Under the pieces are notes generated by a model, which did no database searches, was not told where the DNA came from, and worked only from the letters and a program-made list of their open reading frames with translations. A stretch of DNA of 64,000 nucleotides from Aeromicrobium sp. Leaf350 (lineage in GTDB: Bacteria > Actinomycetota > Actinomycetes > Propionibacteriales > Nocardioidaceae), in assembly GCF_916858655.1 (NCBI RefSeq), contig NZ_CAKASL010000001.1, positions 1-64,000 on the forward strand, given 5' to 3'. A program made the position numbers and the translations under genes. Positions 6,136 through 42,683 of the stretch are shown piece by piece. Position 1 is the stretch's first letter; every line of letters starts with the position of its first letter.

Positions 6136-6933
6136 TCAGCGCCCCGCGAGCTCCAGCGCCGCGGCTCCGCGCAGCAGGGACGGCCGCACCGTCCCACCGG
6201 TCATGAGGTGCACCTGGAGCGCCGCCTGGTGGGCGAGCAGGTCGAGCCCGCTGACGACGGGAATGCCGCGCGTCTCCGCCTCCGAGGCGAGCGCCGTGGG
6301 CCACGGGTCGTAGACGACGTCGAAGACGGCGTCCGCCCGGTGCGCGTGGAACGGGTCGACGACGGCGGAGGGAATCGTGGAGACGAGCACGTCGACCCCG
6401 GAGTCGCCGTGCGCGTGGTCGGTGAGGGTCGAGACCTCGACGGCCATGCCGCACCGGCGCGCCACGTCGACCACGTCGTCGGCGCGGCTGACGTCGCGCA
6501 CGACGACCTCGAGCCGGCGTGCGCCGAGCCGCGACAGCGTCAGGGCCATCGACGCAGCGGTGGCCCCTCCCCCGAGGATCCGCGCGCTGACGACGTCGTC
6601 GATGCCGGCCGCGCGCAGCGCGTTGAGCCCGCCCGGGACGTCGGTGTTGAAGCCGACCCGCTCCTCGCCGAGCAGCACCGTGTTGGCGACCCCGAGCAGC
6701 TCGACGTCCTCGCTCACGTCGTCGAGCAGCGGCACGAGGGCACGCTTCAGCGGGGCCGTGACCGACAGGCCCCGCCACCCGTCGTCGAGGCCGTCCAGGA
6801 ACCCGGGCAGCTCACCCTCGGAGACCTCGACCGCGTCGTAGTCCCAGTCGACACCCAGCTCGAGGTACGCCGCGCGGTGCATCACCGGCGAGAGCGAGTG
6901 GGCGATCGGACTGCCCAGGACGGCACAGCGCAT
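6136..6933 (-). CDS. aroE: Shikimate dehydrogenase
   Basis: 265 residues. NADP-dependent reduction of 3-dehydroshikimate. Seen: substrate-binding GSPIAHSLSPVMHRAA at the N-terminus, SVTAPLK with catalytic Lys, N in VANTV, D in GFNTD, and Rossmann ILGGGATAAS. The NADP-discriminating segment reads VVVRD, where canonical AroE has NRT, so cofactor preference is uncertain. Start overlaps the mltG stop as TGATG. A 276-bp non-coding gap without an evident promoter or hairpin separates it from the prepilin peptidase gene. Confidence 0.93.
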   Translation of the reverse strand: MRCAVLGSPIAHSLSPVMHRAAYLELGVDWDYDAVEVSEGELPGFLDGLDDGWRGLSVTAPLKRALVPLLDDVSEDVELLGVANTVLLGEERVGFNTDVPGGLNALRAAGIDDVVSARILGGGATAASMALTLSRLGARRLEVVVRDVSRADDVVDVARRCGMAVEVSTLTDHAHGDSGVDVLVSTIPSAVVDPFHAHRADAVFDVVYDPWPTALASEAETRGIPVVSGLDLLAHQAALQVHLMTGGTVRPSLLRGAAALELAGR

Positions 6934-8048
6934 CAGCAGCTGAACCCGGCGTCGCGGCAGTTCTGCTGGTGCTCGGAGTACGTCTCCGCGAAGGTCGTCT
7001 CGCCCGTGTCGGGGTCGGCCACGAAGTACACCCAGTCGCCGGCCTCCGGGTTCAGCGCCGCCTCGATCGCGGCCTGGCCGGGTGACCCGATGGGCCCAGG
7101 GGGCAGGCCGGGGTACTTGTACGTGTTGTACGGCGAGTCGGCCGCGCGCTCCTCGTCGGTCGTGAAGACGTCGCCGCTGCGACCGCTCACGTAGTGCACG
7201 GTCGAGTCCATCTGCAGCGGCATGCCGGAGTCGAGACGGTTGTAGATCACGCGGGCACCGCGGGCGAAGTCGTCGTTCGAGACCTCGTACTCCAGGATGC
7301 TCGCCACCGTGAGGACCTGCTCGGTCGTGTATCCCAGTGCCGCGGCGCGACCCTCGATGTCGAGGGAGGCGGTGACCTCGAGGGACTTGGCGACCATCTT
7401 CGACAGCAGCGTCACGGCCGTCTCGCCCGGGTCGATCGTGTACGTCGCCGGGTACAGGTACCCCTCGGGGTTGCCGGCCGCGATGTCGGGCAGTCCGATG
7501 GACGCCGGGTCGGCGAGCGCCGCTTCCAGGTCGGCCTGCGAGATCTGGGTCTTCTCCGTGATGGAGGCGACGATGTCGTCGACGCGTGCGCCCTCGGGCA
7601 CCGCGACCGTCGCGTCGGCCTTGATGATGTCGGTCGTCAGCGCACGGTACGCCGCCGCGGCCGACATCTTCTCGCGCATCTGGTACGAACCGGCCTGCAG
7701 AACCGCCTGGTCGGGGTCGTCGAGCGCCTCCTCGTAGAAGGCCTTCGCGGACTTCACGACGTCCTGCTCCTCGAGGTCGTAGGAGAGGCTGCGCCAGCTC
7801 GCGCCGGACTCGACCTGCACGACGACCTCGCCCGAGCCCTCGCCCGAGTAGTCCGGAGCCGCACCGAAGCGGTCCTGGGCCCAGCCGTAGGCCCAGAGTC
7901 CTCCACCGACGAGCACCGCAAGCACCACGAGCAGGACCACCAGCTTGAGCCAGCGACGCTTCTTCTTCGGCTTCTCCGCACGCCGACGGCCGCGTGCCGG
8001 GCGAGGAGGCTCGCCGCCGGTCACGAGGTCGATCCCGGATTCAGTCAT
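6933..8048 (-). CDS. mltG: Endolytic murein transglycosylase MltG
   Basis: 371 residues. Cuts nascent peptidoglycan glycan strands at the outer membrane face. Seen: basic cytoplasmic N-terminus, one transmembrane helix (about 33-53), LysM-like domain, then the YceG catalytic domain with Glu253 in ASILEYEV, GNPEGYLYP, and C-terminal PLQMDSTVHY and YKYPGLPPGPI. The C-terminus ends NCRDAGFSC with two cysteines that could form a disulfide. Coupled to ruvX (4-nt overlap) and aroE. Confidence 0.94.
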   Translation of the reverse strand: MTESGIDLVTGGEPPRPARGRRRAEKPKKKRRWLKLVVLLVVLAVLVGGGLWAYGWAQDRFGAAPDYSGEGSGEVVVQVESGASWRSLSYDLEEQDVVKSAKAFYEEALDDPDQAVLQAGSYQMREKMSAAAAYRALTTDIIKADATVAVPEGARVDDIVASITEKTQISQADLEAALADPASIGLPDIAAGNPEGYLYPATYTIDPGETAVTLLSKMVAKSLEVTASLDIEGRAAALGYTTEQVLTVASILEYEVSNDDFARGARVIYNRLDSGMPLQMDSTVHYVSGRSGDVFTTDEERAADSPYNTYKYPGLPPGPIGSPGQAAIEAALNPEAGDWVYFVADPDTGETTFAETYSEHQQNCRDAGFSC

Positions 8049-29955: not shown

Positions 29956-30720
29956 TCAGGCCTGGGCCTGCTCCAGCACCTCGTCGCTCGCGTCGAAGTT
30001 CGCGAAGACGTTCTGCACGTCGTCGCAGTCCTCGAGCGCGTCGACGAGCTTGAGCACCTTCGTGGCGCCGTCGACATCGACCTCGACCTGCACCGACGGC
30101 ACGAACGACGCGTCGGCCGAGTCGTAGTCGAGCCCGGCCTCCTGCAGCGCGGTGCGCACGGCGACCAGGTCGGTCGGCTCGCACACGACCTCGAAGGCCC
30201 CGTCGAGGTCGTTGACCTCGTCGGCACCGGCCTCGAGCACGGCCAGCAGGATGTCGTCCTCGGTGGTCTCGCCGCCCTCCTGCTCCGCGGGCACGATGAT
30301 GACGCCCTTGCGGTGGAAGAGGTACGAGACCGAGCCCGGGTCGGCCATCGTGCCGCCGTTGCGGGTCATGGCGGTGCGGACCTCCATGGCGGCGCGGTTC
30401 TTGTTGTCCGTGAGGCACTCGATGAGCATCGCGACGCCGTTGGGGCCGTACCCCTCGTACATGATCGTCGTGTAGTCGACCGCGTCGTCGCCGATGCCAC
30501 CGCCGCGCTTGACCGCGCGGTCGATGTTGTCGTTCGGGACCGACGACTTCTTGGCCTTCTGAATCGCGTCGTAGAGCGTGGGGTTGCCGTCGGGATCGGG
30601 CCCGCCGGTGCGCGCCGCGACCTCGATGTTCTTGATGAGCTTGGCGAACATCTTGCCGCGCTTGGCGTCGACGACGGCCTTCTTGTGCTTCGTGGTCGCC
30701 CACTTGGAGTGCCCTGACAT
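29956..30720 (-). CDS. YebC/PmpR family protein
   Basis: 254 residues, family length, starting [16 protein letters not shown]. YebC-type proteins were long called transcription regulators; recent work assigns several of them a ribosome rescue role at proline stretches. Start preceded by GAGGGG. Usual position between pdxT and ruvC. Ends with a short extension ([10 protein letters not shown]). Confidence 0.93.
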
Positions 30721-30739
30721 GGCGCGTCCCCTCTGTTCT

Positions 30740-31336
30740 CTACTGCGTGACGAGGTCGACGAACAAACCGTGCACCCGGTCGTCGTCACCGACCTCCGGG
30801 TGGAAGGCGGTGGCGAGCAGGTGGCCCTGTCGAACCGCCACGATCCTATCCGCGCCGGCCACCTCGACCGAAGCCAGCACCTCGACGGACTCCCCCGCCT
30901 GCTCGATCCACGGTGCCCGGATGAAGACCGCGTGGACCGGGTCGGACAGTCCGGTCAGGTCCAGGTCGCCCTCGAAGGAGTCGACCTGGCGGCCGAACGC
31001 GTTGCGCCGGACCGTGACGTCGAGCCCGCCGAAGGTCTCCTGGTCGCGGATGCCGTCCTTGACCCGGTCGGCCAGCATGATCATCCCCGCGCAGGTGCCG
31101 AACGCGGGCATGCCGCCCGTGATGCGGTCGACGATCGGCTCGAAGAGCTCGAAGGTCCGCGCGAGCTTGAACATCGTCGTGGACTCCCCGCCGGGCAGCA
31201 CGAGTCCGTCGCAGCGGGCCAGCTCCTCGGGACGCCGCACGGTGATCGCGGTCGCACCGAGCCGCTCGAGGGCGGCGACGTGCTCGCGGACGTCGCCCTG
31301 CAGGGCGAACACGCCGATCGTGGGGCTGGAGGTCAC
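30740..31336 (-). CDS. pdxT: Pyridoxal 5'-phosphate synthase glutaminase subunit PdxT
   Basis: 198 residues from a GTG start. Class I-type glutaminase: PGGESTTMF, nucleophile Cys82 in [10 protein letters not shown], and His179/Glu181 in FHPEVGDD. It supplies ammonia to PdxS. The partner pdxS normally lies immediately upstream but here is 8.8 kb away (40107-41024), separated by the SipW cluster. Consequently the two subunits are not obviously co-transcribed. Confidence 0.95.
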
Positions 31337-31402
31337 CGGGACAGGGTAGTGCGACGGCGCCGACCCGGCCGCGAGGGCCGGGGCGGTGCCGTCACGACGC
31401 GG

Positions 31403-32665
31403 TCAGGGCGTCTCGGTCAGCGTGGGCGTCGGCTCGGGATCCGGCGAGGGGCTCGGCTCGTCCGAGGGGGTCGGCTCCGGGGTCGGAGTCGACTCCTCCT
31501 CGACGTCCTCGACCGCGTCGGACTGGAGCTCGGGCGTGGTCTCGACCAGCGGAGCCGGCGCCGGCAGCGGCAGCGGCAGGTTGAGGTTCACGTCGAGGCA
31601 GACCGCGGTGTAGTAGCGCTGGTTGAACAGGTTCAGGATCACGACCGTGCCGAGCGAGACGCTCGCGCTGAGTCCGCCGTCGGTACCGACCGCGATGGCC
31701 GACAGCACGTAGATTCCAGGCGGAGTCGTGCTCAGGTCGATCGCGAAGCTTCCGCTCGGACCCGTCGTGTACGTGGTGCCGACCGTTCCGAGCACGGCCA
31801 GGTTCAGCTGGTAGCCGCCCACACCCGCGAGGGTGTTGAGCTGGACGTTCAGGAGCCCGGTCGAGGAGGCCGAGCAGCCGAACGAGGGCGGCGCGATGGC
31901 GTTGGCCTGGAACGTGCCGCCCGTGACGGTGGCCGTGTCCGCGTAGTACGCCGAGGTGCTGCTCGGCGCCAAGGGACCGACCGTCAGCCCGGTGGCGACC
32001 AGCGTCGACGTGGCGAGCGCGAAGGCCTTGCGTCGTCCGCCCCGCTTCGGCGTGTTCGCCGTGGGAGGCAGCACCGCGTCGTCGAGCTCGTCGGCCCGAT
32101 CCGGTCGGTCCTCGTCGCGCCCGCGCGGACCGGGCTTGCCGCCGCGGTCACGGAGCACCAGCATCAGGACGCCCCCGACCAGGAGGCCGCCGGCGAAGAT
32201 GCCGACGGGGCCATTGACCTCGGCGACCACGTATCCGGCCTTCGGGATGTCGAAGAGCAGCTTCTGGGCGGACTCGACGACGTAGACGTCGGCGTCGGGG
32301 ACGGCGTTCGCGTCTCCCTGCAGGACGAGGGTCGCCGTGTCGGCGCCCTGCGTCACGCCCACGATGCGGTGCGTCACGAGCTGGCCGTTGGCCGCCTCGA
32401 CGGTCACGACGTCACCGACGGCGAGCTCGGAGGCGTCCACGGTCTGGGAGAACCCCAGGGCACCGGTCGGCACGGCCGGGGCCATCGAACCGGAACGGAA
32501 GATGACCGGCTTGACGTCGAACGCGACAGCGGCCGCGCTGCTGAGCAGGCACAGCACGCCGAGCACCGCGCCGATCGTCAGCAGGCTCTCGCGCAGGAGT
32601 CGCAGCACCGGGCGTCGGGCGGGTGCCCGCTCCGGCGTCGTGCTCTCGATGAGGGAGTGGCTCAC
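31403..32665 (-). CDS. SipW-type signal peptidase fused to a SipW-type exported domain (module 2)
   Basis: 420 residues from the GTG at 32665 (GTGA with the previous stop). Residues 1-172 form a Ser/His (ER/SipW-type) signal peptidase: TM1 about 27-48, nucleophile Ser60 in RSGSMAPAVPTG, general base His99 in VTHRIVG, GDAN at 118-121, TM2 about 154-172. After a charged linker comes a second hydrophobic signal (about 213-238) followed by AYYADTATVTGGTF, the cleavage-site pattern of SipW substrates, then a Gly/Thr-rich beta domain and a Pro/Glu/Thr/Ser tail. An enzyme fused to its own kind of substrate is odd; it may cut itself to release the exported part. Last gene of module 2. Confidence 0.8.
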   Translation of the reverse strand: MSHSLIESTTPERAPARRPVLRLLRESLLTIGAVLGVLCLLSSAAAVAFDVKPVIFRSGSMAPAVPTGALGFSQTVDASELAVGDVVTVEAANGQLVTHRIVGVTQGADTATLVLQGDANAVPDADVYVVESAQKLLFDIPKAGYVVAEVNGPVGIFAGGLLVGGVLMLVLRDRGGKPGPRGRDEDRPDRADELDDAVLPPTANTPKRGGRRKAFALATSTLVATGLTVGPLAPSSTSAYYADTATVTGGTFQANAIAPPSFGCSASSTGLLNVQLNTLAGVGGYQLNLAVLGTVGTTYTTGPSGSFAIDLSTTPPGIYVLSAIAVGTDGGLSASVSLGTVVILNLFNQRYYTAVCLDVNLNLPLPLPAPAPLVETTPELQSDAVEDVEEESTPTPEPTPSDEPSPSPDPEPTPTLTETP

Positions 32666-33270
32666 GGGGCACCGACCTGCTTGGCGTTGAAGACGAACGC
32701 GGGAGTCGTGCTGGTGGCCTGACCGGTCGTGGTCCCCGTGGGCAGCTTCGCCTCGACGCACACGCTCTCGGTCGCGCCGGCCGCGAGGGCCCGCAGCGTG
32801 CCGATGACCGGCGTCGGCGTGACCTCGTCGAGCAGGCCGCTGAAGGTCTCGGTGCCGCCCGTGCAGGTCTGCGCCGCGCCGGCGCCGCTGACGCTGCCGC
32901 CCGGCACGACCCGGTAGACGAGGTGGTCGGACAGGAGGCCCGGCGACGTGCCGGTCGCGGAGTAGACGAAGTCGGTCGTGCCGACGTTCTCGACCGTCAC
33001 GACCGCGGCCTTGCTCTGGCCCGGCTGCATGTTGGTGAGCGTGAGCTCGGTCGCGAAACCGGCGGGGTTGTTGTCAGCGCCGGAGAGCTTGACGTCGAGC
33101 GTGCCGGTCAGGAACTCGCCACCCCCCACGGTCGCGTCGTCCGTCCAGTAGGCGTAGGTGCCGGTCGCGCCGAAGCCGGCCACGATGCCGAGGCTCAGGA
33201 CCGCCCTCACAGGGACGGAGCGCAGCCCGCGCCGAGTGGCTCGGCGGGACGTGGGTGCGTGACGGGTCAT
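32662..33270 (-). CDS. TasA/camelysin-like exported protein with SipW-type signal (module 2)
   Basis: 202 residues. Basic N-terminus, hydrophobic core (about 21-38), then AYWTDDATVGGGEFLTGTLD, the pattern that marks SipW-dependent exported proteins such as TasA and CalY. The mature part is a small beta domain (LTLTNMQPGQSKAAVVTVEN) with two cysteines. Paralogous to 37329-37949 in module 1. Coupled by ATGA to the LPDTG gene and GTGA to the fusion gene. Confidence 0.8.
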   Translation of the reverse strand: MTRHAPTSRRATRRGLRSVPVRAVLSLGIVAGFGATGTYAYWTDDATVGGGEFLTGTLDVKLSGADNNPAGFATELTLTNMQPGQSKAAVVTVENVGTTDFVYSATGTSPGLLSDHLVYRVVPGGSVSGAGAAQTCTGGTETFSGLLDEVTPTPVIGTLRALAAGATESVCVEAKLPTGTTTGQATSTTPAFVFNAKQVGAP

Positions 33271-33941
33271 TGGGGTGCTCCTTCGTGGTCCGGACGGCGC
33301 CGGGGCAAGAGTGCTGCCCCGACGCCGATCGAGATCGAGGCGAGGACGGCGAGGACGGTCAGGTCGGCGGAGCCCGTGTCGGGCAGTGCCTGGGTCTCGG
33401 GGGCGTCGGTGCTGACGGCGGCCGAGGCGGAGGTGATGGTCGAGAGGGTCACGAGGAGCGCGAAGTCGTGCTGCAGCAGCTGGGCGGAATCGGGTGCGTC
33501 GGGACTGATCTGGACGCGCACCGTGACCGGCACGGCGCCGCCGGCCGCGAGAAGCGACCGGTTCAGGAGCGGGTCGTTGGCGAGGCCGTCGACGGTGGGG
33601 CCGTCCGTCACCGACGGCACGTCGGCCGAGACGAGCACGTGCTCGGCAGCAGCCGCCGGGAGCCCCTTCTGGACCAGGGTGATGTCCATCCGAGCGTCAG
33701 CGGCTGCGTCGTTGCGCACCATGAACGTGGCCTCGCGGACGTCCCCCGGGACCCAGCGGAGCGAGGTGTCGAACAGGTCGATCTGCAGCTGCGGCACGAA
33801 CGTCGCGCCGTCGGCGCTGACGGAGACGGCCGCCTCGGTCGCCGAGACGGCGGCCAGGTCGACGGCCTGGGCGGCGCTGGCCAGCCACAGCGGGCTCAGC
33901 GAGGCCGCCACGGTGGGGACGAGCACGAAGCTGGTCTTCAT
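33267..33941 (-). CDS. Secreted LPDTG-anchored surface protein (module 2)
   Basis: 224 residues. Ordinary Sec signal peptide (1-26, ending ASAAQA), beta-rich body beginning VSVSADGATFVP...DLFDTSLRWVPGD, and a C-terminal sortase signal: LPDTG at 186-190, hydrophobic helix, RRR. It is therefore expected to be wall-anchored by a sortase encoded elsewhere. The pattern DG-x-T...LFD...RW-x-PGD is shared with the module 1 protein at 37942-38589. It could anchor the fibre or coat made by its neighbours. Confidence 0.8.
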   Translation of the reverse strand: MKTSFVLVPTVAASLSPLWLASAAQAVDLAAVSATEAAVSVSADGATFVPQLQIDLFDTSLRWVPGDVREATFMVRNDAAADARMDITLVQKGLPAAAAEHVLVSADVPSVTDGPTVDGLANDPLLNRSLLAAGGAVPVTVRVQISPDAPDSAQLLQHDFALLVTLSTITSASAAVSTDAPETQALPDTGSADLTVLAVLASISIGVGAALLPRRRPDHEGAPQ

Positions 33942-34516
33942 GCGTCGACCTTCTGTCGGTGGGAGCCCGGCCCGCCGGCCTCGGCGCGGAGCCGGGCCCG
34001 GCGGGAGCGGAAGAGGCCGACACCGGCGAAGGCGGCGTAGCCGAGGAGCAGGACCGCGACGACCCGGGTGGCGAGCGCCCGTTCCTCGACCGCAGCCACG
34101 TTGAGGTGTCCCAGGTAGGGCACCGAGTACCAGAGCGTGCCGCGCACCTGCTCCTCGAGGACGATGCCGTCGTCGGGAGCATTGTTCGCGTCGCCCTTGG
34201 TGAGGAGAGCGGGATCGCCCTCCTCGTCGAGGGTCTTGCCGATGACCCGGTGGGTCACGGTGGTGCGCTCGCCGGAGACCAGCTGGAACGTCACCACGTC
34301 TCCCACGTCGATGTCGTCGATGTCGGTGGGCCGGATCACCACGAGGGTGCCCGGCGGGAGTCCCGGCTCCATCGAGCCGGTCAGGACCGTGTACGGGGCC
34401 CCGCCCCCGAGACGGGGCACGACGACCATGACCGCGAGCAGGGCGACCGCCGCGAGCAGGGTCAGCCAGATGGCCGTCCTGCGCACTGCGGTGGCCAGCG
34501 TGCTGGTCATCGTCAT
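33938..34516 (-). CDS. sipW: SipW-type signal peptidase I (module 2)
   Basis: 192 residues: N-terminal TM (about 14-35), YTVLTGSMEPGLPPGT with Ser48 nucleophile, VTHRVIG with His89 in place of the Lys of ordinary bacterial SPase I, KGDANN, and a C-terminal TM (about 150-168). This Ser/His class in Firmicutes (SipW) matures TasA and TapA. Here its likely substrates are the AYW-signal proteins encoded beside it. ATGA overlap with the LPDTG gene; 38 nt after the exported subunit gene. Confidence 0.88.
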   Translation of the reverse strand: MTMTSTLATAVRRTAIWLTLLAAVALLAVMVVVPRLGGGAPYTVLTGSMEPGLPPGTLVVIRPTDIDDIDVGDVVTFQLVSGERTTVTHRVIGKTLDEEGDPALLTKGDANNAPDDGIVLEEQVRGTLWYSVPYLGHLNVAAVEERALATRVVAVLLLGYAAFAGVGLFRSRRARLRAEAGGPGSHRQKVDA

Positions 34517-34554
34517 GTCGTGTCCCGTCCCGAGGAGTCGTGATCAGCTACGGA

Positions 34555-35097
34555 TCAGGGAGCGACCTGCGTCGCCGTGACGGTGTAGCCGTTGACGAAC
34601 TTGTTGGTGTTCTGCGGGATGTTGTTGGGCGTGGTGCCGAACGGGAACTCGATCCGGATGGTCGCCGTCAGGACCTTGTTGTGGTCGGCCGACGTGATGC
34701 CGGTCGTGGTCTGGCCACCGACGGTGTAGGAGCCGGTCGCCAGGAGCTGGAAGCCCGAGTTGGCGCTCTGGGTCGGACCAGCGGTCGTCAGGGCGGCCGT
34801 CAGGTTCTCGCCACGGGCCTTGACCGTGAAGTTGCAGGTCTTGGTCAGGACGTCGCCGGGGACGACGCGGGTGATGCCCGGGTTCGTGCCGACGTAGGTC
34901 TGGCCGTCCGCGAACGTGAAGGGCTGCGCGGCGCAGGCGTCGGCACCGGTGCCGTCGACGAGCTTGAGCTCACCGGCGTGGACCTGGACGCCGTCGACCG
35001 GGGCCTCGGCGTTCCAGTAGGCGAGGGAGCCCGCACCGCTGGCGAGGAGCGCCACGCCGGCCACGGCGGCCAGGGTCACCTTGGAGGACTTCTTCAT
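34555..35097 (-). CDS. SipW-dependent exported protein, RER_14450-like (module 2)
   Basis: 180 residues from the ATG at 35097 (MKKSSK; an in-frame ATG at 35109 is possible). Hydrophobic core then AYW at 26-28, the alternate signal for SipW-type cleavage. The mature domain has two cysteines (DACAAQP and KTCNFTV) and a Thr-rich beta structure. It resembles the actinobacterial alternate-signal exported family first named for Rhodococcus RER_14450. Paralogue of 39247-39780, with AYW at the same residue. As first gene of the module it may be the major subunit. Confidence 0.8.
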   Translation of the reverse strand: MKKSSKVTLAAVAGVALLASGAGSLAYWNAEAPVDGVQVHAGELKLVDGTGADACAAQPFTFADGQTYVGTNPGITRVVPGDVLTKTCNFTVKARGENLTAALTTAGPTQSANSGFQLLATGSYTVGGQTTTGITSADHNKVLTATIRIEFPFGTTPNNIPQNTNKFVNGYTVTATQVAP

Positions 35098-35287
35098 GGG
35101 GGAATCCATTCATGAGGTGGACGGCTCTCGCCGTCCGGTGGGTTCCCTCCCACGGGGAAGACTGGCGGCTCGCGCGCCCCCGTACTGCACGAATCGCAGG
35201 CATACCTCGAGTACGCCGCAAATACGGCTCGAACGGACTATTACGGAGTCATCACCACGGACAACGCCGCATGGCTCGAAGCGACGT

Positions 35288-37327
35288 TCAGTAGGTGAAC
35301 TCGACTACCGTGTTCGCGCCGACGTTGCCCGCAGCATCGGTCAGCCCGGTGACCGTGAGGCGGTACTCCATCGCCGTGGTCAAACCGGCGCGGTTCGGAT
35401 AGATCGTCGCCGACGTCGCGTTGCCGGAGGCGATGGAGAACGTGGACCCACTGACCGTGATCGGGTAGGTGGCCGAGCACGCCGAGCTGTAGGCGTTGCC
35501 ATTCAGGCACACCGTGCTGGGCACGAGGAACAGGAAGGTGTCCGTCCGACGCAGGCTCCACTGGGCCGTTGGGCTCGCGGCCACACCGCTGACGGTCTCC
35601 GTGACCGTGCCACAGGCCACCCGGTTCGCCCCACAGGCGTCGGTCACGGCCGTGCGGAGGCCGTTCGCGTTGGCGTAGTTCGTCGGGGTCGGCGCGGTCA
35701 CCGTGATCGTCGGCGCCGTGCCGTCGATGTAGTACGTGCCGCTCGCGATCGGGCTCACGTTGCCGGCGAGGTCGGTGGCGCGGGCCTGCATCTTGCGGCC
35801 GTTGGTCTCTGGCATCGGGACCGTGCCGCTGTAGGCGAGCCACACGGTGTCGGCGTTGTTCGTGTACTGCTGACCGGCCGCGGGGACGCCGCTGCCGCCG
35901 GCGTTGTCGGTGAAGGTGGCCGTCCAGGCCAGGCTCGTCACCTTGCACCAGGTCGTGCCGGCAACCGCGTTGCCGACGTTGGCCGTGGCGCAGGGGGCCG
36001 CCTGCGTCGCCGTGGGGGCGATCGTGTCGAGCACGACGGTGCGGACGGCCGAGGTGGCCGTGTTGCCGTACGGGTCGGTCGCCACGGCGTCGTAGCTCGC
36101 ACTGCCCTCGACCAGGCTCACCGGGAGGCTCCAGGTGCCGCCCGCGGTGACGGTCGCGGTGTCCGTCAGCGGCACGCCGTTGCGTCGCACCACGATGGTC
36201 GATCCGGGCTCGCCCTGACCGACGATCGTGTTGGCCTTGACGTTGGTGACGAGGTCGGCGGGGACGTTCGAGTCGCTGCCGATGGAGTCGATCGAGACCG
36301 TGGTGGTGGTGTCGTTGCCGCAGCGGAGCTGGGTGTACCCGGGCGTGTAACGCACCGCGATCGTCAGCGGCGTGGGCGAGAGCCACGTCGTGCTGCCGTT
36401 CGGCACGGCGCGCACGCGCAGCTGGAAGTTGAGGGCGCCCGAGGTCGAGGCGGGGAAGGTGGCCCGCTGCACCTCGCTCGCGACCGACGCCGTGGTCGCG
36501 GCGTTGACGTACGTGACGTCGCCGACCTGCGTGCCGTCGAGCCGGTGCAGGCTGAGCTGGTAGCGGTAGCGCTGACCGACGTTGTTCCAGCCGACGAGCA
36601 CGTGGTCGCCCGTGTCGGAGCACGTCGCACCGGCGGGGGTCGGCGTCGGCGCGACCGTCGTGAAGGTGCCGGACGTGGCCGTGGCGACGTCGGTCCAGTA
36701 GGCCTGCGTGGGCATCGCGCCGAGGACGAGCGCGCCCGCCGCCACCAGGGCGCCGACCGACATCGTCGCGACGGGACCGCCGGATGAGGCTCGCCCGGAC
36801 CGGTGGTGCGAGCTGGCCGGACGGCGCAGCAGGAGGACCAGGACGACGCCCGAGGCCACGAGCACCGCGACGCCGCTGCGTCCGTCGAGGGCCGTGACGA
36901 CGCGGCCGAGCACCGGCACGCTCACGTCGACGCGCTCGGCGCTCGTGACGACGTACGGCTCCGGGTCTGTGGTCGAGTTCGCGTCGCCCTGGAGCACGAG
37001 GACGGCCTCGTCGCCCCGGAGCTGCGCGGCCACCACGCGGTGCGTCACGCGCTCGTCACGGTCGTTCTCGACGCTGACGACGTCACCCACCGCCAGGTCG
37101 CCGGCATCGACGGTGCGGGAGAACGCGAGCGACCCGGTCGGGATCGACGGTGACATCGAGCCGGAGGTGAAGACGAGCGGCTTGACGCCGGCCGCCCAGG
37201 CGAGGCCCGTGGCCAGGATCGCCAGCACGCCGAGCGCGACGGCGAGCCGCAGGACGCCCCGGCGACGGCGGTCGGGTCGGTCGGTCGAGCGGTGCGAGCG
37301 CGCCGGGCGGGCGAGGTGGCGGGACAT
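35288..37327 (-). CDS. SipW-type signal peptidase fused to multidomain Ig-like exported protein (module 1)
   Basis: 679 residues. Residues 1-168 are a Ser/His signal peptidase: TM1 25-46, Ser57 in TSGSMSPSIPTG, His96 in VTHRVV, GDAN at 114-117, TM2 152-167. After a short Ser/Arg/His-rich linker a second hydrophobic segment (188-208) leads to AYWTDVATATSGTF, a SipW-type substrate signal, followed by about 460 residues of beta domains, including Ig-like segments (GSTIVVRRNGVPL; LDTIAPTA; YYIDGTAPTITVTAP). Same architecture as 31403-32665 but with a much longer exported part. It starts one base after the previous stop. Confidence 0.82.
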   Translation of the reverse strand: MSRHLARPARSHRSTDRPDRRRRGVLRLAVALGVLAILATGLAWAAGVKPLVFTSGSMSPSIPTGSLAFSRTVDAGDLAVGDVVSVENDRDERVTHRVVAAQLRGDEAVLVLQGDANSTTDPEPYVVTSAERVDVSVPVLGRVVTALDGRSGVAVLVASGVVLVLLLRRPASSHHRSGRASSGGPVATMSVGALVAAGALVLGAMPTQAYWTDVATATSGTFTTVAPTPTPAGATCSDTGDHVLVGWNNVGQRYRYQLSLHRLDGTQVGDVTYVNAATTASVASEVQRATFPASTSGALNFQLRVRAVPNGSTTWLSPTPLTIAVRYTPGYTQLRCGNDTTTTVSIDSIGSDSNVPADLVTNVKANTIVGQGEPGSTIVVRRNGVPLTDTATVTAGGTWSLPVSLVEGSASYDAVATDPYGNTATSAVRTVVLDTIAPTATQAAPCATANVGNAVAGTTWCKVTSLAWTATFTDNAGGSGVPAAGQQYTNNADTVWLAYSGTVPMPETNGRKMQARATDLAGNVSPIASGTYYIDGTAPTITVTAPTPTNYANANGLRTAVTDACGANRVACGTVTETVSGVAASPTAQWSLRRTDTFLFLVPSTVCLNGNAYSSACSATYPITVSGSTFSIASGNATSATIYPNRAGLTTAMEYRLTVTGLTDAAGNVGANTVVEFTY

Positions 37328-37328
37328 C

Positions 37329-37949
37329 TCAGCGCACCACCGATCGGCCGGTCACGACGAGCACGACGGTGCCGGTGCGCGGCTGCGCGCCCTGGGTGGC
37401 GGTCTGGGGCAGCGAGACCTGGGCGCACACGTTCTGCGTGCCGTTCGGCGCGATGGCGGCCATCGCGTTCGAGGCGGCGACGGTCAGCAGCGTCGTGTCG
37501 CTGGTCGCGAGCGTGACCGCAGGCCCGAGCGACGCGCCGGAGCAGGAGCTCGAGTACCCCACCGTGCCGTTGCCGGTGTTGGTCGCCGTGCCCGAGAACA
37601 GCTGGACCTGCAGGCTCGTGGCGATCGTGCCGGTGCCGCGACCCGCGACGGTGAAGCGGAGCCGTGACTCGACGCCGATGTTCGAGACGGTGAGCGTCGC
37701 CGCACGGCTGTCGCCCGGCAGCATGTCGGTGATCGTGAGTCCGCTGAGCGCGACGGTGTCGCTCGCGCTGCCGTTGAGGCCGATGTCGAGCGTGCCGGAG
37801 CTCAGCGTCGGAAGGGTGACCGTGGCCGAGCCGGTCCAGTAGGCGCCGGTGGCGTTCGTGCCGGTGACCAGCAGGAACAGCACGACAGCGCCGACCGCAG
37901 CGCGCGCCAGACGGCGGCGGGGTCGGGTGCGGGCGCGGTGCTCAGCCAT
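37329..37949 (-). CDS. TasA/camelysin-like exported protein with SipW-type signal (module 1)
   Basis: 206 residues. Arg-rich N-terminus, hydrophobic core (about 17-33), then AYWTGSATVTLPTLSSGTLD with AYW at 36-38. The mature beta domain carries LTITDMLPGDSRAATLTVSN, matching the module 2 paralogue (LTLTNMQPGQSKAAVVTVEN). Two cysteines plus one near the middle. Overlaps the LPTTG gene by 8 nt. Confidence 0.8.
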   Translation of the reverse strand: MAEHRARTRPRRRLARAAVGAVVLFLLVTGTNATGAYWTGSATVTLPTLSSGTLDIGLNGSASDTVALSGLTITDMLPGDSRAATLTVSNIGVESRLRFTVAGRGTGTIATSLQVQLFSGTATNTGNGTVGYSSSCSGASLGPAVTLATSDTTLLTVAASNAMAAIAPNGTQNVCAQVSLPQTATQGAQPRTGTVVLVVTGRSVVR

Positions 37950-38589
37950 GCTGCTCCTCCCCCTTGCGACGGGCCGCGAGAACGGCTCCGCCCGCAGCGC
38001 ACGTGAGGAGGCCGAGGAGGAACAGGTCGAGCCCGACCTGGGCGCCGGTCGTGGGCAGCGACCCCGAGCCGGCGTTGCCAGCGGGGTTCGCGTCGCTCGG
38101 GAACGCCTCAGCCAGCGTGATGCGGAACTGCAGCGGCAGCTGCCGAGCCTGGGTCACGTTGGTCGAGGCCGGGTCGAAGAACGCGCGGACGTCGACCGTG
38201 ACCACGTCGCCGACCGGGACCGGCCGGACGGTGAGGTCCTGGGCCACCTGGGCCGGGTCGAGCGCGACCCACGCGCCACCGTCGACGCGCACCGAGAGGT
38301 CGATGTCGCTCTCGAGGAACGGGTCGCCCGCTGGGGTGAGTGCCTCGATGCTCATCGTCGCGGCCGAGGGGCCCTGGGCCCGGACGTAGAACGTGCGGGT
38401 CTCGTCGTCGCCCGGGATCCAGCGCATGGCCGGGTCGAACAGCGGAGCCGTGATGGCCGGCATCCACGTGGAACCGTCGACGCTGACGCCGATCTCGTCC
38501 GCGGCGTGTGCGGGCGTGACCCACAGCAGCGCGAGCAGGCCACCGAGCACGGCGCCGAGCAGGGGCAGGAGGGAGCGACGAACGGTCAT
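37942..38589 (-). CDS. Secreted LPTTG-anchored surface protein (module 1)
   Basis: 215 residues. Conventional signal peptide (1-29, ending TPAHA), body starting VSVDGSTWMP...PLFDPAMRWIPGD, then LPTTG at 178-182, a hydrophobic helix (about 184-206) and ARRKG: a complete sortase signal. Paralogous to 33267-33941. ATGA overlap with the peptidase gene. The conventional signal suggests ordinary SPase I processes this protein while SipW handles its neighbours. Confidence 0.82.
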   Translation of the reverse strand: MTVRRSLLPLLGAVLGGLLALLWVTPAHAADEIGVSVDGSTWMPAITAPLFDPAMRWIPGDDETRTFYVRAQGPSAATMSIEALTPAGDPFLESDIDLSVRVDGGAWVALDPAQVAQDLTVRPVPVGDVVTVDVRAFFDPASTNVTQARQLPLQFRITLAEAFPSDANPAGNAGSGSLPTTGAQVGLDLFLLGLLTCAAGGAVLAARRKGEEQHG

Positions 38590-39182
38590 GCGGCGTGCGC
38601 TCCCTTCTTCTTCGTGCTGGTCGTGGCGGCGGTGCGGTTCGTGCGACGGTCGAGGAGGCTCGAGCCGAAGGCCCAGGCCGCGTAGGCCAGCAGGGCGATG
38701 ACCACGCCGGTGGTGACGACCTGGCGGGCCGAGCCCGACAGCGCGTGGTTGACGTGCCCCAGCAGCGGCACGGAGTACCAGAGCCGACCCCTGACCTGGT
38801 CGGCGATGACCGGCTTCGCGTCGACGATGCTGTTGGCATCGCCCTGGGTGATGAACGTGCGCTCGTCCGAGCCGTTCGTCGGCGCCCCGATGCCCACGAC
38901 CCGGTGGGTGACGACCTCGGGCTCGCCCGAGACGAGCTGGTAGGTGACGACGTCACCGACCTTGATGTCGTCGGCGTCGACCGGCTTGACGACGACCAGG
39001 GTTCCCGGCGGGAAGTCCGGCCGCATCGACCCGGTCAGCACCGTGTACGGCGTCGCGCCGCCCGCGCGGGGCACGAGCACGCCGACGGCCACCATCGCGG
39101 TGGTCGCCAGGATGACGGTCCACGTGAGCGTGAGCGTCAGGAAGCCGAAGGCGCTGCGGGTCTTGGTCATGGGCGTGTCCAT
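38586..39182 (-). CDS. sipW: SipW-type signal peptidase I (module 1)
   Basis: 198 residues from the ATG at 39182 (MDTPMTK; ATG at 39170 is an alternative). TM (about 13-37), YTVLTGSMRPDFPPGT with Ser52, VTHRVVG with His93, QGDANS, C-terminal TM, and a Lys-rich end. Clearly paralogous to 33938-34516 (shared GAPYTVLTGSM / GATPYTVLTGSM and RGxLWYSVPxLGH). It follows the exported subunit gene after 64 nt. Confidence 0.88.
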   Translation of the reverse strand: MDTPMTKTRSAFGFLTLTLTWTVILATTAMVAVGVLVPRAGGATPYTVLTGSMRPDFPPGTLVVVKPVDADDIKVGDVVTYQLVSGEPEVVTHRVVGIGAPTNGSDERTFITQGDANSIVDAKPVIADQVRGRLWYSVPLLGHVNHALSGSARQVVTTGVVIALLAYAAWAFGSSLLDRRTNRTAATTSTKKKGAHAA

Positions 39183-39246
39183 GGGAACGTCCCGGCGCCG
39201 GCCGTCGACCGGCGCCGGAGTCCGTTCCCTCAGGAGCATCCGTTCG

Positions 39247-39780
39247 TCAGTTGTGCGTCTGGACGGCGACGAGCTGGAGCTGGCCGAGCTGCTCCGCGGT
39301 GATGTTCTTGCCGTCGTTGTCGGCAGACGTCAGCGGGTTCGCCGAGACCGTGCCGTAGGGGTACGAGGCGTTGACGGTGGCGGTGATGGTCTTCGTGCCC
39401 TGACCGACCACCGTGTTGTTCGTGACGCCATCACCCGACAGGGTGACGGCCCCGAAGGTCAGCTCGGAGGCGAGCGGGCCGGCGGCGGTGATGTTGCCGA
39501 TCTGCAGCTTGGCGCCGATGTGGTCGCCCTGGAGGTCCAGCGTGACGGTGCACTGCAGGCGGATCGTGTCGCCCGGGATGACCTTGACGACAGGCGTCGA
39601 GGTCTCGGTGTGCGTCCAGCCCGAGCCACAGGCCGGCGTGCCGAGGGTGATCGTGCCGCTCGACAGCGTGCCGGCGTTCACGTTCGTGTCGGCCGTCCAG
39701 TACGCGAGGGTGCCGGCTCCGCCGAGGAGGATGGCGGCCGCGGCGCCCGCGGCGAGCGCGCCCTTGGTGGTCTTCTTCAT
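39247..39780 (-). CDS. SipW-dependent exported protein, RER_14450-like (module 1)
   Basis: 177 residues from the ATG at 39780, preceded by GGAG. MKKTTKGALAAG opening, Ala/Gly-rich core, AYW at 26-28, then NAGTLSSGTITLG. Two cysteines in the mature beta domain (PACGSGW and RLQCTVT) at positions comparable to the module 2 paralogue. As first gene with the best ribosome site in the cluster it is the best candidate for an abundant structural subunit. Confidence 0.8.
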   Translation of the reverse strand: MKKTTKGALAAGAAAAILLGGAGTLAYWTADTNVNAGTLSSGTITLGTPACGSGWTHTETSTPVVKVIPGDTIRLQCTVTLDLQGDHIGAKLQIGNITAAGPLASELTFGAVTLSGDGVTNNTVVGQGTKTITATVNASYPYGTVSANPLTSADNDGKNITAEQLGQLQLVAVQTHN

Positions 39781-40106
39781 GGTGATGCTCCTGGGTGAGG
39801 GTGAGCACGCCGACCTGGCATGTCGAGGAAGAGACGCCCCGATCACGGGATCGTGACGCGACTTCCGCCACCAGCCGACATGTGTTTCAGATCACACTCC
39901 CCCGCGGGCGCACACCCAGCAACCTCAAAAAGCCTTTCTCCCCCACTCCCACCGCACAACTCACTGGAACGACGGCCGTCTCGATGAGCACATTCCCTGC
40001 GCGGAAACGCCAAAGGTCCCACTGACGCCGACCACAGGTCGAGCGCAGCGAGACTCCGCGGGTCAAGCGCGAGGAACGAGCGCGAAGGCGACGGAGTCGC
40101 CTTCGC
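39781..40106. other. 326-bp intergenic region upstream of the SipW cluster
   Basis: No gene seen. It must contain the promoter of module 1 (minus strand). It is locally less GC-rich than the flanking genes (around 39890-39970). A short inverted repeat TCACG-GGAT-CGTGA lies near 39844, and the pdxS terminator hairpin occupies the far end. Confidence 0.6.
40082..40106 (-). terminator. Terminator hairpin after pdxS
   Basis: Perfect 11-bp stem (GCGAAGGCGAC pairing with GTCGCCTTCGC) and a GGA loop, starting directly after the pdxS stop. No strong U-tract. It would isolate pdxS from the SipW cluster downstream. Confidence 0.65.
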
Positions 40107-41024
40107 TCACCAGCCGCGGGTCTCGAGGCGGTGAGGCTCGGGGATGTCGGAGACGTTGATGCCGACCATCGCGTCACCGAGGCCGCGCGAGACCTTCGCG
40201 ACGACGTCGGGGTCGTCGTAGAACGTCGTGGCCTTGACGATGGCCTCGGCACGCTCGGCCGGGTTGCCCGACTTGAAGATGCCCGAGCCCACGAACACGC
40301 CCTCCGAGCCGAGCTGCATCACCAGCGCCGCGTCGGCCGGGGTCGCGATGCCACCGGCAGTGAACAGCACGACGGGCAGCTTGCCGGTCTGGGCGATCTC
40401 CTTGACGAGGTCGAACGGCGCCTGGAGCTCCTTCGCGGCGACGTACAGCTCGTCGTCGCGCAGGCCCTGCAGCTTGCGGATCTCGCCGGTGATCTTGCGG
40501 ATGTGGGTGACCGCGTTGGAGACGTCGCCCGTGCCAGCCTCACCCTTGGAGCGGATGAACGCCGCCCCCTCGGTGATGCGGCGCAGCGCCTCGCCCAGGT
40601 TCGTCGCGCCGCACACGAACGGGACGTTGAACGCCCACTTGTCGATGTGGTTGGCGTAGTCGGCCGGGGTCAGCACCTCGGACTCGTCGACGTAGTCGAC
40701 ACCCAGGCTCTGCAGGATCTGCGCCTCGGCGAAGTGGCCGATGCGGGCCTTGGCCATGACGGGGATCGAGACGGCCTCGATGATCGCGTCGATCAGGTCG
40801 GGATCGCTGGCACGCGCCACACCGCCCTGCGCACGGATGTCGGCGGGCACCCGCTCGAGCGCCATGACCGCCACCGCGCCGGCGTCCTCGGCGATCTTCG
40901 CCTGGTCAGCCGTGACGACGTCCATGATGACGCCGCCCTTCAGCATCTCGGCCATCCCGCGCTTCACGCGGGAGGTGCCGATACCGGTGTCGTTCGAGGC
41001 GCTGGGGGTCTGTTCGGTGCTCAC
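40107..41024 (-). CDS. pdxS: Pyridoxal 5'-phosphate synthase lyase subunit PdxS
   Basis: 305 residues from a GTG start. TIM-barrel enzyme condensing ribose 5-phosphate, glyceraldehyde 3-phosphate and ammonia. Schiff-base Lys92 in [10 protein letters not shown], second Lys in [13 protein letters not shown], and [17 protein letters not shown] are all present. Unusually it is separated from pdxT by the ten-gene SipW cluster and its own terminator. Confidence 0.97.
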
Positions 41025-41033
41025 CCGGCGAGT

Positions 41034-42683
41034 CTAGCGAGCGGGTTGGGCGGACCTCACGACGTCCACCATCCTGAGACGGTCGACGACCTTGCGGCGA
41101 GGGCGCCCGTCAGCTCGGCCCGACCGCCGTTCGTGGGCGTCGAGGACCTTCCAGTCGGCCAGGTCGAGGGCGGCTCCGTCGGCGAGGAGCGCGCGCGAGC
41201 CGCGATGCGGCTCGACCCGACCGGTCGCGACGTCCGAGAGCAGGGCGTTCACGGTCTCGAGCGAGCACGACTTGTTGGTGCCGATGAAGCCCGTGGGGCC
41301 GCGCTTGGCCCAGCCGACGACGTAGGTGCGCGGCAGCAGGTCTCCCCCGGGCTCGGTGAGCACACGGCCGCCGACGTTCGAGATGCGGTGGGCCTCCGGG
41401 TCGAACGGGACGCCGGGAATCGGATCGGAGCGGTAGCCGACCGAGCGCAGCACGGTCGTGGTCGCGATGAGCTCGTGCTCCTCGGTGGGCACCGCGCGCA
41501 CCGCGCCGTCCGGGCCGGTCTCGAGGCGGGTGCGGGCGACACGGAGGCCCTCGACGCGGTCGGTGCCGAGGATCTGCTCGGGTGCCGAGAGGAAGCGCAG
41601 CACGACGCGGCGGCGGTCGGGATCGATCGTGGCGTCCGAGCCCTCGCGCAGGAGTCGCGACTTGGTGTCGTCGCCGCCCAGCAGCTCCTGCTGCGGGACC
41701 ACGACGTCGAGGTCGGGGTGGGTCAGCAGGCCGACCATCTCGGGCACGGTGAACGCGGCCTCGGCCGGGCCACGGCGGGCCACGAGCACGACCTCGCGCA
41801 CGGCGCTGGTGCGCAGAGCCTCGAGGGCGTGGTCGGCGATGTCGGTGCGGGCCAGCTCGGCCGGGTCGCTGAGCAGCACGCGTGCGACGTCGAGCGCGAC
41901 GTTGCCGTTGCCGACCACCACGACGCGGTCGGCCGAGAGGTCGAGCGGGGTGTCGACGTGGTCGGGGTGCCCGTTGTACCAAGCGACGACGTGGGTGGCC
42001 GTCGCGTTGCCGGGCAGGTCCTCCCCCGGCACGCCGATGCGACGGTCGCGGGAGGCGCCGGTGGCGTAGATGACCGCGTCGTACCCGGCGAGGACCTCGT
42101 CGTGGCTGACATCGGTGCCGACCTCGACCCCGAGCCGGTACTCGAAGCCGGGCTGAGACTCGATCTGCGCGAAGAGCTTGCCGATGTCCTTGGTGTGCTG
42201 GTGGTCGGGCGCCACTCCCGCGCGCACCAGGCCGTGCGGCGTGGGGAGGCGGTCGAGCACCGTGACGTCGACCCCGCGCTGCTTCAGCAGCTCGTCGGCC
42301 GCGTACAGCGCGGCGGGACCTGCCCCCACGATCGCGACGCTCAGCTGCGAACGCTCCTGGATGCGCACGACCGGCGGCACGGGAGCCTGGGCCGGCCTGG
42401 TGGCCGACTCCAGGCCGTTGCCGGCGTCCGATCCCGCGTGGAACAGCGCGTTGAGCTCCATGAACACGAGCTCGTCGTCGTCGAGGCGCGTGTGCGGCTT
42501 GATCGCTCCGACGGGGCAGGCGCGGACGCACGCCCCGCAGTCGACGCACGAGATCGGGTCGATGTAGACCATCTCGGCCGTCGCGAAGTCGGGCTCGTCG
42601 GGCGTGGGGTGGATGCAGTTGACCGGACAGGCGAATGCGCAGGCGGCATCGCCGCAGCAGGGCTGCGTGACGACGTGCGGCAC
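41034..42683 (-). CDS. Ferredoxin-NADP reductase with N-terminal ferredoxin domain (FprB-like)
   Basis: 549 residues from a GTG start. Residues 1-75 are a 7Fe/8Fe-type ferredoxin: Cys9/10, 15, 19, 23, then C46-VDC-GAC-VRAC-P. The rest is an adrenodoxin-reductase-like flavoprotein: VAIVGAGPAALYAADE (FAD), VVVVGNGNVALDVARVL (NADP), and ATH...GWAKRGPTGFIGTNK at the C-terminus. Resembles mycobacterial FprB. It begins one base after the diiron oxygenase stop, so it is the probable electron donor for that enzyme. Confidence 0.9.
   Translation of the reverse strand: MPHVVTQPCCGDAACAFACPVNCIHPTPDEPDFATAEMVYIDPISCVDCGACVRACPVGAIKPHTRLDDDELVFMELNALFHAGSDAGNGLESATRPAQAPVPPVVRIQERSQLSVAIVGAGPAALYAADELLKQRGVDVTVLDRLPTPHGLVRAGVAPDHQHTKDIGKLFAQIESQPGFEYRLGVEVGTDVSHDEVLAGYDAVIYATGASRDRRIGVPGEDLPGNATATHVVAWYNGHPDHVDTPLDLSADRVVVVGNGNVALDVARVLLSDPAELARTDIADHALEALRTSAVREVVLVARRGPAEAAFTVPEMVGLLTHPDLDVVVPQQELLGGDDTKSRLLREGSDATIDPDRRRVVLRFLSAPEQILGTDRVEGLRVARTRLETGPDGAVRAVPTEEHELIATTTVLRSVGYRSDPIPGVPFDPEAHRISNVGGRVLTEPGGDLLPRTYVVGWAKRGPTGFIGTNKSCSLETVNALLSDVATGRVEPHRGSRALLADGAALDLADWKVLDAHERRSGRADGRPRRKVVDRLRMVDVVRSAQPAR

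Follow-up and report, generated by a model that had tools for sequence, protein, structure and literature searches.

Two five-gene cassettes lie side by side on the minus strand of a 64,000-nucleotide stretch of the Aeromicrobium sp. Leaf350 genome (contig NZ_CAKASL010000001.1, positions 1 to 64,000; hereafter the window), and we propose that each probably specifies a TasA-like, SipW-dependent surface fibre together with a predicted wall-anchored base for it. Fibres of the TasA type have been described in Bacillus and in archaea; to our knowledge, the way in which they are attached to the cell is poorly settled. An initial annotation of the window had suggested that SipW-type export and an LPxTG protein are combined here in an actinobacterium, and the analysis below supports that combination. 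Homologies, gene order, protein anatomy, synteny and phylogeny are observed directly, and from these we infer polymerisation, the dominant subunit, polarity, anchoring and the self-processing of one of the proteins (E).

Layout of the two cassettes

The cassettes were initially read as ten contiguous minus-strand genes at 31403-39780 in two copies of one order, A-B-C-D-E, and all ten open reading frames (ORFs) were recovered there. For E2 the gene stood while its proposed start at 32761 did not, GTG at 32665 being the most likely one (420 amino acids, aa, overlapping the D2 stop). The features, with the bordering genes, are as follows.

39247..39780, minus: A1 (P0001, 177 aa), exported subunit with SipW-type signal GTLAYW; TIGR04089 107.8 bits, TIGR04088 24 bits
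38586..39239, minus: B1 (P0002), S26B-type Ser/His signal peptidase; TIGR02228 89.9 bits
37942..38589, minus: C1 (P0003), ordinary AxA-type signal (by eye), Ig-like domain and predicted LPTTG anchor; LPXTG_anchor 17.9 bits
37329..37949, minus: D1 (P0004), predicted exported protein with SipW-like signal TGAYW (by eye), homologue of D2; D profile 152 bits
35288..37327, minus: E1 (P0005, 679 aa), signal peptidase, internal SipW-type signal TQAYW and Ig-like ectodomain; TIGR02228 61.2
34555..35109, minus: A2 (P0006), exported subunit with SipW-type signal GSLAYW; TIGR04089 110 bits, TIGR04088 22.2 bits
33938..34516, minus: B2 (P0007), S26B-type Ser/His signal peptidase; TIGR02228 94.9 bits
33267..33941, minus: C2 (P0008), predicted LPDTG-anchored Ig-like protein; Gram_pos_anchor 20.1, LPXTG_anchor 15.0
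32662..33270, minus: D2 (P0009), TasA/camelysin-family protein with SipW-type signal GTYAYW; PF12389 22.7 bits, TIGR04088 27.3
31403..32665, minus: E2 (420 aa), signal peptidase, internal SipW-like signal TSAYY, ectodomain and Pro/Thr/Glu-rich tail; TIGR02228 64.4
40107..41024, minus: pdxS, upstream border of the slot, outside the system; TIGR00343/NF003215
30740..31336, minus: pdxT, downstream border of the slot, outside the system; TIGR03800

The genes are tightly packed. B and C overlap by 4 base pairs (bp) in both cassettes, C and D by 8 and 4 bp, and D and E are separated by 1 bp in one cassette and overlap by 4 bp in the other, with 178 bp between E1 and A2. Paralogy of the five pairs, first argued from shared motifs, is borne out by BLASTP, with identities of 32% for A1/A2 (E-value 6e-15), 51% for B1/B2 (3e-52), 30% for C1/C2 (3e-13), 30% for D1/D2 (3e-15) and 38% over 305 aa for E1/E2 (2e-39). 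No Rfam family reached gathering scores in window 30000-42000 and no sigma-70-like promoter was found for the cluster, which holds one plus-strand terminator-like site against 1.8 expected by chance.

Export, predicted anchoring and a shared subunit fold

All 49 A proteins matched TIGR04089 (exp_by_SipW_III), those of the window well above its cut-off of 60 bits, and a TIGR04088 signal is present in 48 of the 49 as well as in 38 of 40 D proteins. Within the window A1, A2, D2 and E1 exceed the TIGR04088 cut-off of 19, with D1 and E2 unlisted at E 0.1. The TasA/camelysin family PF12389 is matched by 33 of the 40 D proteins (D2 lying just above the cut-off of 22.5 bits) and by seven of the 49 A proteins, and the TasA model NF046066 by four of the 40 D; against the BsaA family TIGR04090, D2 reaches 18.7 bits, below the cut-off of 60. 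The A consensus contains an invariant A-x-W, where x is mostly Y or F. Cleavage after the alanine would place the tryptophan as an aromatic P2' residue, and such residues are described as hindering cleavage by E. coli LepB (PMC10269814), which would account for the presence of dedicated peptidases.

The N-segment, which runs from the predicted cleavage site to the start of the first core strand, is 14 aa long in all 47 parsed A rows (49 aligned, two unparsed) and 13-14 aa long in each of the 40 D proteins, compared to 13 aa in the TasA structure 8aur, with cleavage sites picked by regular expression rather than by a cleavage predictor. The donor strand of TasA is given as residues 28-38 (PMC9674648). 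The translations of A1, A2, D1 and D2 lack an LPxTG motif.

B1, B2, E1 and E2 all score above the TIGR02228 cut-off (51.85), B1 falling under the cut-off of the SipW model NF046067 (69 bits against 190), and the Ser and His columns are invariant across 29 B proteins. Genome-wide, four TIGR02228 peptidases and two TIGR04089 proteins were found, every one of them inside these cassettes. In the E proteins the peptidase domain is succeeded by further hydrophobic stretches and then by a D-type signal with N-segment (E-value 3.9e-7 in E1, 3.4e-7 in E2; 1.4e-5 and 3.4e-4 for the whole D profile against the two), beyond which E1 continues into Ig-like domains, matching Big_13/Big_6 of Pfam. TIGR04088 is matched by E1 at residues 193-224 (23.3 bits) and not by E2. 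In 90 of 101 E ORFs a Ser motif is matched with a His-type motif after it, one of these ORFs (L079) having Gln in place of His. This architecture suggests that E may be a self-processed cap or adhesin, the most tentative part of our model.

C belongs to an unannotated family. C1 and C2 end in LPTTG and LPDTG, respectively, with a hydrophobic stretch and a basic tail, and each passes one of two anchor models and fails the other (cut-offs 15.9 for LPXTG_anchor and 20 for Gram_pos_anchor). By eye, the signal of the C family is of the ordinary AxA type. Its N-segment measures 2-3 aa in 28 of 37 proteins (range 0-9), cleavage being placed at the last A-x-A ahead of the strand, a rule biased to short N-segments. 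We thus picture C, in most members, as a putative acceptor without a donor segment that would be tied to the wall. Four sortase genes of the genome exceed the Pfam cut-off, all outside the window. Two resemble class E (141 and 80 bits) and two resemble class F (149 and 47 bits), none reaching the NCBIfam cut-off for its class. They score only weakly for class C, and the cluster itself contains no pilus (class C) sortase. As a separate observation, a class E-like sortase adjoins a second gene elsewhere in this genome (L052:4616-5746 and 6378-7469), the product of which, read by eye, we presume to be of the DUF916/WxLIP type.

Profile comparison connects the three exported proteins with each other. 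Full-profile hhalign gave 95.8% for A-C, 92.0% for C-D and 97.9% for A-D, with three reversed and 24 column-shuffled control profiles at no more than 0.7% and the peptidase at no more than 9.3%. After cropping the signal and N-segment, A-C (92.7%) and C-D (93.8%) survive while A-D falls to 8.5% (with a score of 22.9, the highest among 20 shuffles being 12.3), so the core relation between A and D passes via C. Since C is linked to both A and D, the predicted wall anchor would have the fold of a subunit. Searched against the PDB, the D profile retrieved AbpX (9sj2, 0.0035) and TasA (5of1, 0.0046; 8aur, 0.006), the TasA alignment spanning TF-SGTLDL, a PG(D/E) turn and a C-terminal NxxQG...ATQ, of which NxxQ is present in the A and C consensus as well. 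The fibre foreseen by the initial annotation is thereby probable, considering the membership of D in the TasA/camelysin family and this weak profile link to solved donor-strand fibres. AlphaFold models of C2 (predicted local distance difference test, pLDDT, 75) and A1 (pLDDT 80.5) are Ig-like sandwiches; the C model matches TasA with Z 7.1 and AbpA (7ueg) with Z 7.4 over 127 residues, and the A model TasA (8aur) with Z 5.9, in comparisons where a fold missing from the match list is not thereby excluded.

Several results weigh against a fibre of this kind. The best PDB match of the D profile is the unrelated ciliary protein FAP74 (0.00096), a HYDIN-type Ig family also matches five of the 40 D proteins, and the A and C sequence profiles did not retrieve TasA or another fibre protein from the PDB. 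The matches of the A and C models to TasA and AbpA (Z 5.9-7.4) tie with many Ig/PapD-like folds, and to this is added the low A-D value of the cropped cores. In the window, D1 has no NCBIfam match and no Pfam match above cut-off, and A1 and A2 have no Pfam match. Regarding the anchor, the cassettes contain no sortase gene, the C cleavage rule is biased as described, and C2 is a possible exception with an N-segment of maybe about 12 aa if cleaved at AQA. LPxTG is also altered or gone in some C proteins (L044, L047, L067, L105 and L124), so anchoring cannot hold universally. As for E, an internal SipW-type signal is detected at E<0.05 in only 40 of the 101 ORFs, ten of the 101 consist of the peptidase alone, and the third hydrophobic stretch of E2 lies below the hydropathy threshold used.

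These points leave room for A, C and D being separate Ig-like surface or secreted proteins (a coat, an adhesin, an enzyme) with special export and no polymerisation. In its favour, the models match Ig/PapD-like folds in general, PF12389 bears the name camelysin metallo-endopeptidase, and C proteins without LPxTG may be secreted or just membrane-held. The donor-length N-segment conserved in A and D, the profile link of D to TasA and AbpX, and the maintenance of three homologous subunits and peptidases as one ordered unit speak against it, however, and we regard this explanation as unlikely. Fainter still is the prospect that C serves as a wall-held assembly platform or chaperone, akin to TapA or CapP, rather than as the fibre's structural base. 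In structure comparison the C model matches chaperones of the PapD/Caf1M type as well as subunits (Z ~7-7.6), and TapA and CapP of Bacillus are described as strand-donating or chaperone-like partners (PMC10151520, PMC13082335). TapA is, however, thought to donate its N-terminal strand (PMC9674648), a segment that most C proteins seem to lack, and an LPxTG anchor would be unusual for a recycling chaperone.

Recurrence, the pdxS-pdxT slot and the origin of the two copies

The ordered module recurs in other genomes, so the condition that would have refuted the initial annotation, an order seen nowhere else, does not arise. C is encoded in 31 of 98 related genomes, the one of the window counted, and 25 of the 30 others carry a contiguous ABCDE. 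The remaining five have ADBCDE (two), ABCD (two; for L048 a contig end lies within 0.6 kb) and ABCDDEDE (one). Two cassettes are present in six of the 30 relatives in addition to the window, and three of these six have no C in the first cassette. Searching GTDB genomes with the B alignment yielded 201 relatives, of which we analysed the best 80 (some of the same species as in the 30-genome set): ABCDE is contiguous in 33 of the 80 loci, and 40 have a pdxS-pdxT location.

Farther away the arrangement changes: loci of Rhodococcus, Prescottella and Williamsia mostly read A-D-B-D-E or A-D-E-A-D-B with no C alongside, and Microbacteriaceae show yet another arrangement. The A/D and B/E labels follow, for stop-to-stop ORFs, whichever of five profiles made for this analysis scored best, from the stricter profile set (a looser iteration merged the profiles), and in distant taxa C or D genes may be overlooked or mislabelled. 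At 1e-5 the C profile matched ten of 396 phylum-wide genomes including that of the window; of the nine others, G321 was matched over the domain, G120 over the second half and seven only toward the anchor end. Within the reach of these searches, C is therefore chiefly a Nocardioidaceae protein. By title, we found no actinobacterial SipW system of such kind in the open-licence literature, which does not show its absence from print.

The cassettes sit between pdxS and pdxT, splitting the pair (window 30740-41024). Both borders lie on one contig in 43 of 49 Aeromicrobium genomes (window counted), and the slot is full in 23 of these and vacant in 20. Measured from match end to match end, eight genomes have a gap of 2 bp, meaning that pdxS and pdxT abut or overlap, 12 have one of 163-480 bp and 23 have one of 3.7-8.8 kb; these counts cover Aeromicrobium only and rest on match coordinates transcribed by hand, with some rows from other families of the order omitted. 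All 23 long gaps belong to genomes having C, and in five genomes with a 2-bp gap the module is present elsewhere. No convincing module remnants were seen in eight compared vacant slots of the 20 (best tblastn E-value 0.029). Cassettes have been gained, lost or swapped at one chromosomal spot in relatives. One genome, G002, offers a natural empty-site control, with a PdxS 95% identical to that of the window and a vacant slot of 163 bp (L153, G002:C18:151500-156500).

Vacant slots also revealed a conserved non-coding stretch of ~200 bases, comprising a GAGGTATGGGAGTGCCTC hairpin that hardly varies and another, long one that is GC-rich and has ATCCCC as its loop (L155, L156, L157, L158 and L160). 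It occurs at L056:1980-2220, L057:11072-11312, L060:10461-10700, L061:5617-5857 and L063:11657-11860 as well, and an alignment of ten copies displays compensatory change in 18 of 55 predicted pairs. Rfam gave no match for it at E<=1 in eight vacant-slot loci, and its 15-base core has no exact match in the loci covering window 30722-40622. The stretch is possibly a new structured RNA.

The two copies had been considered a simple tandem duplication, which the phylogeny contradicts. In a tree of 56 cassettes (seven without C, two without E; 18 of the 80 public loci included), copy 1 groups with L066 (ultrafast bootstrap, UFBoot, 98) and copy 2 with L055, L056 and the second copies of four other tandem loci (UFBoot 99), deep nodes being weak. 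Constraining the two copies to be sisters was rejected (log-likelihood difference, deltaLnL, 98.8; approximately unbiased test, AU, p=0.0047); these values stem from the full run, a first constraint run (AU p=7.6e-12) having been set aside for its shallow tree search. The resolution of a tree of B only was too poor for placing the copies. L069 has the shortest path to copy 1 and is a neighbour by housekeeping genes too, and a PdxS-PdxT-YebC tree of 25 loci places the window with L069 and L070 (UFBoot 100), apart from the genomes bearing relatives of copy 2. The flank tree consequently conflicts with the placement of copy 2, and transfer or old paralogy with loss both fit.

A recent duplication, for dosage or for two alternative fibres, would give the same gene order side by side, and it seems to have happened in one relative. 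With pairs just 30-51% identical, the copies in different clades, the sister constraint rejected and the flanks at odds with copy 2, we nevertheless consider it highly improbable for the window. The relative in question (L068, G041) is the sole one here in which both cassettes group together with L067, a neighbour that has just one, and its cassette was probably duplicated recently.

Proposed assembly and comparison with known systems

On the preferred reading, the exported proteins would have their A-(Y/F)-W signal peptides removed by B and by the peptidase portion of E; with an aromatic residue expected at P2', these signals should withstand ordinary signal peptidase. Mature A and D would then start with a 13-14 residue segment in place of the TasA donor strand, and with a segment of donor length they could polymerise by donor-strand exchange. 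C, having the core fold, mostly no donor segment and an end of LPxTG, transmembrane stretch and Arg, would accept the last donor strand, and one of the four sortases of the genome may link it to peptidoglycan; the lack of a donor segment in C hence predicts the polarity of the fibre. E, with its D-type signal and N-segment placed before the ectodomain and behind its own peptidase, may release a donor-bearing cap or adhesin. The two old, divergent cassettes share the pdxS-pdxT slot, a site of cassette gain, loss or swapping.

In its fullest form (a Gram-positive donor-strand fibre on a wall-anchored, acceptor-only copy of the subunit, a self-processing peptidase-adhesin cap, and pdxS-pdxT as a Nocardioidaceae exchange site diversifying fibres between species) this picture is tentative, and we would rather doubt that all of it holds. 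A subunit homologue bearing a predicted wall anchor would nonetheless make fibre anchoring by donor-strand exchange directly testable in a non-model actinobacterium, and the slot provides presence and absence of predicted surface fibres across a whole genus.

Among known systems, tapA-sipW-tasA of B. subtilis likewise places a SipW-class Ser/His peptidase beside cargo with signals of the aromatic-P2' type; D is in the Pfam family of TasA, the N-segments are of about equal length, and SGTLDL, PGD and NxxQG are shared. In contrast, the system described here has five genes, an LPxTG subunit homologue, a second peptidase fused to cargo and two cassettes, and its fibre is only predicted. Sortase-polymerised pili differ in that no pilus sortase is found in the present cluster and the A and D subunits here have no LPxTG. 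The archaeal bundling pili AbpA/AbpX are related by the weak D-AbpX sequence link and by the resemblance of the C model to AbpA, in an archaeal host, and we know of no LPxTG anchoring for them. TasA, ABP and ABPx are described as donor-strand exchanged fibres (PMC11952670).

The sipW-tasA-capP-calY locus of B. cereus similarly combines two camelysin-type subunits and a partner protein (PMC10151520, PMC13082335). Its TasA-CalY filaments are reported to assemble without sortase (PMC13082335), whereas an LPxTG subunit and a peptidase fusion are features of the present cassettes. In C. perfringens, the sipW-bsaABC locus, near which the sortase gene srtB lies, encodes a polymer-forming protein that depends on SipW; deletion of srtB was without effect and BsaA has no predicted LPXTG-like motif (PMC7395162). 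A is itself a member of the TIGR04089 'alternate-type signal peptide' proteins, an NCBIfam entry that covers the exported protein only, the module, anchor and fusion not being included. What sets the present cassettes apart is the putative LPxTG-anchored subunit homologue together with the predicted peptidase-cargo fusion, in a system that otherwise appears to be of the SipW/TasA kind.

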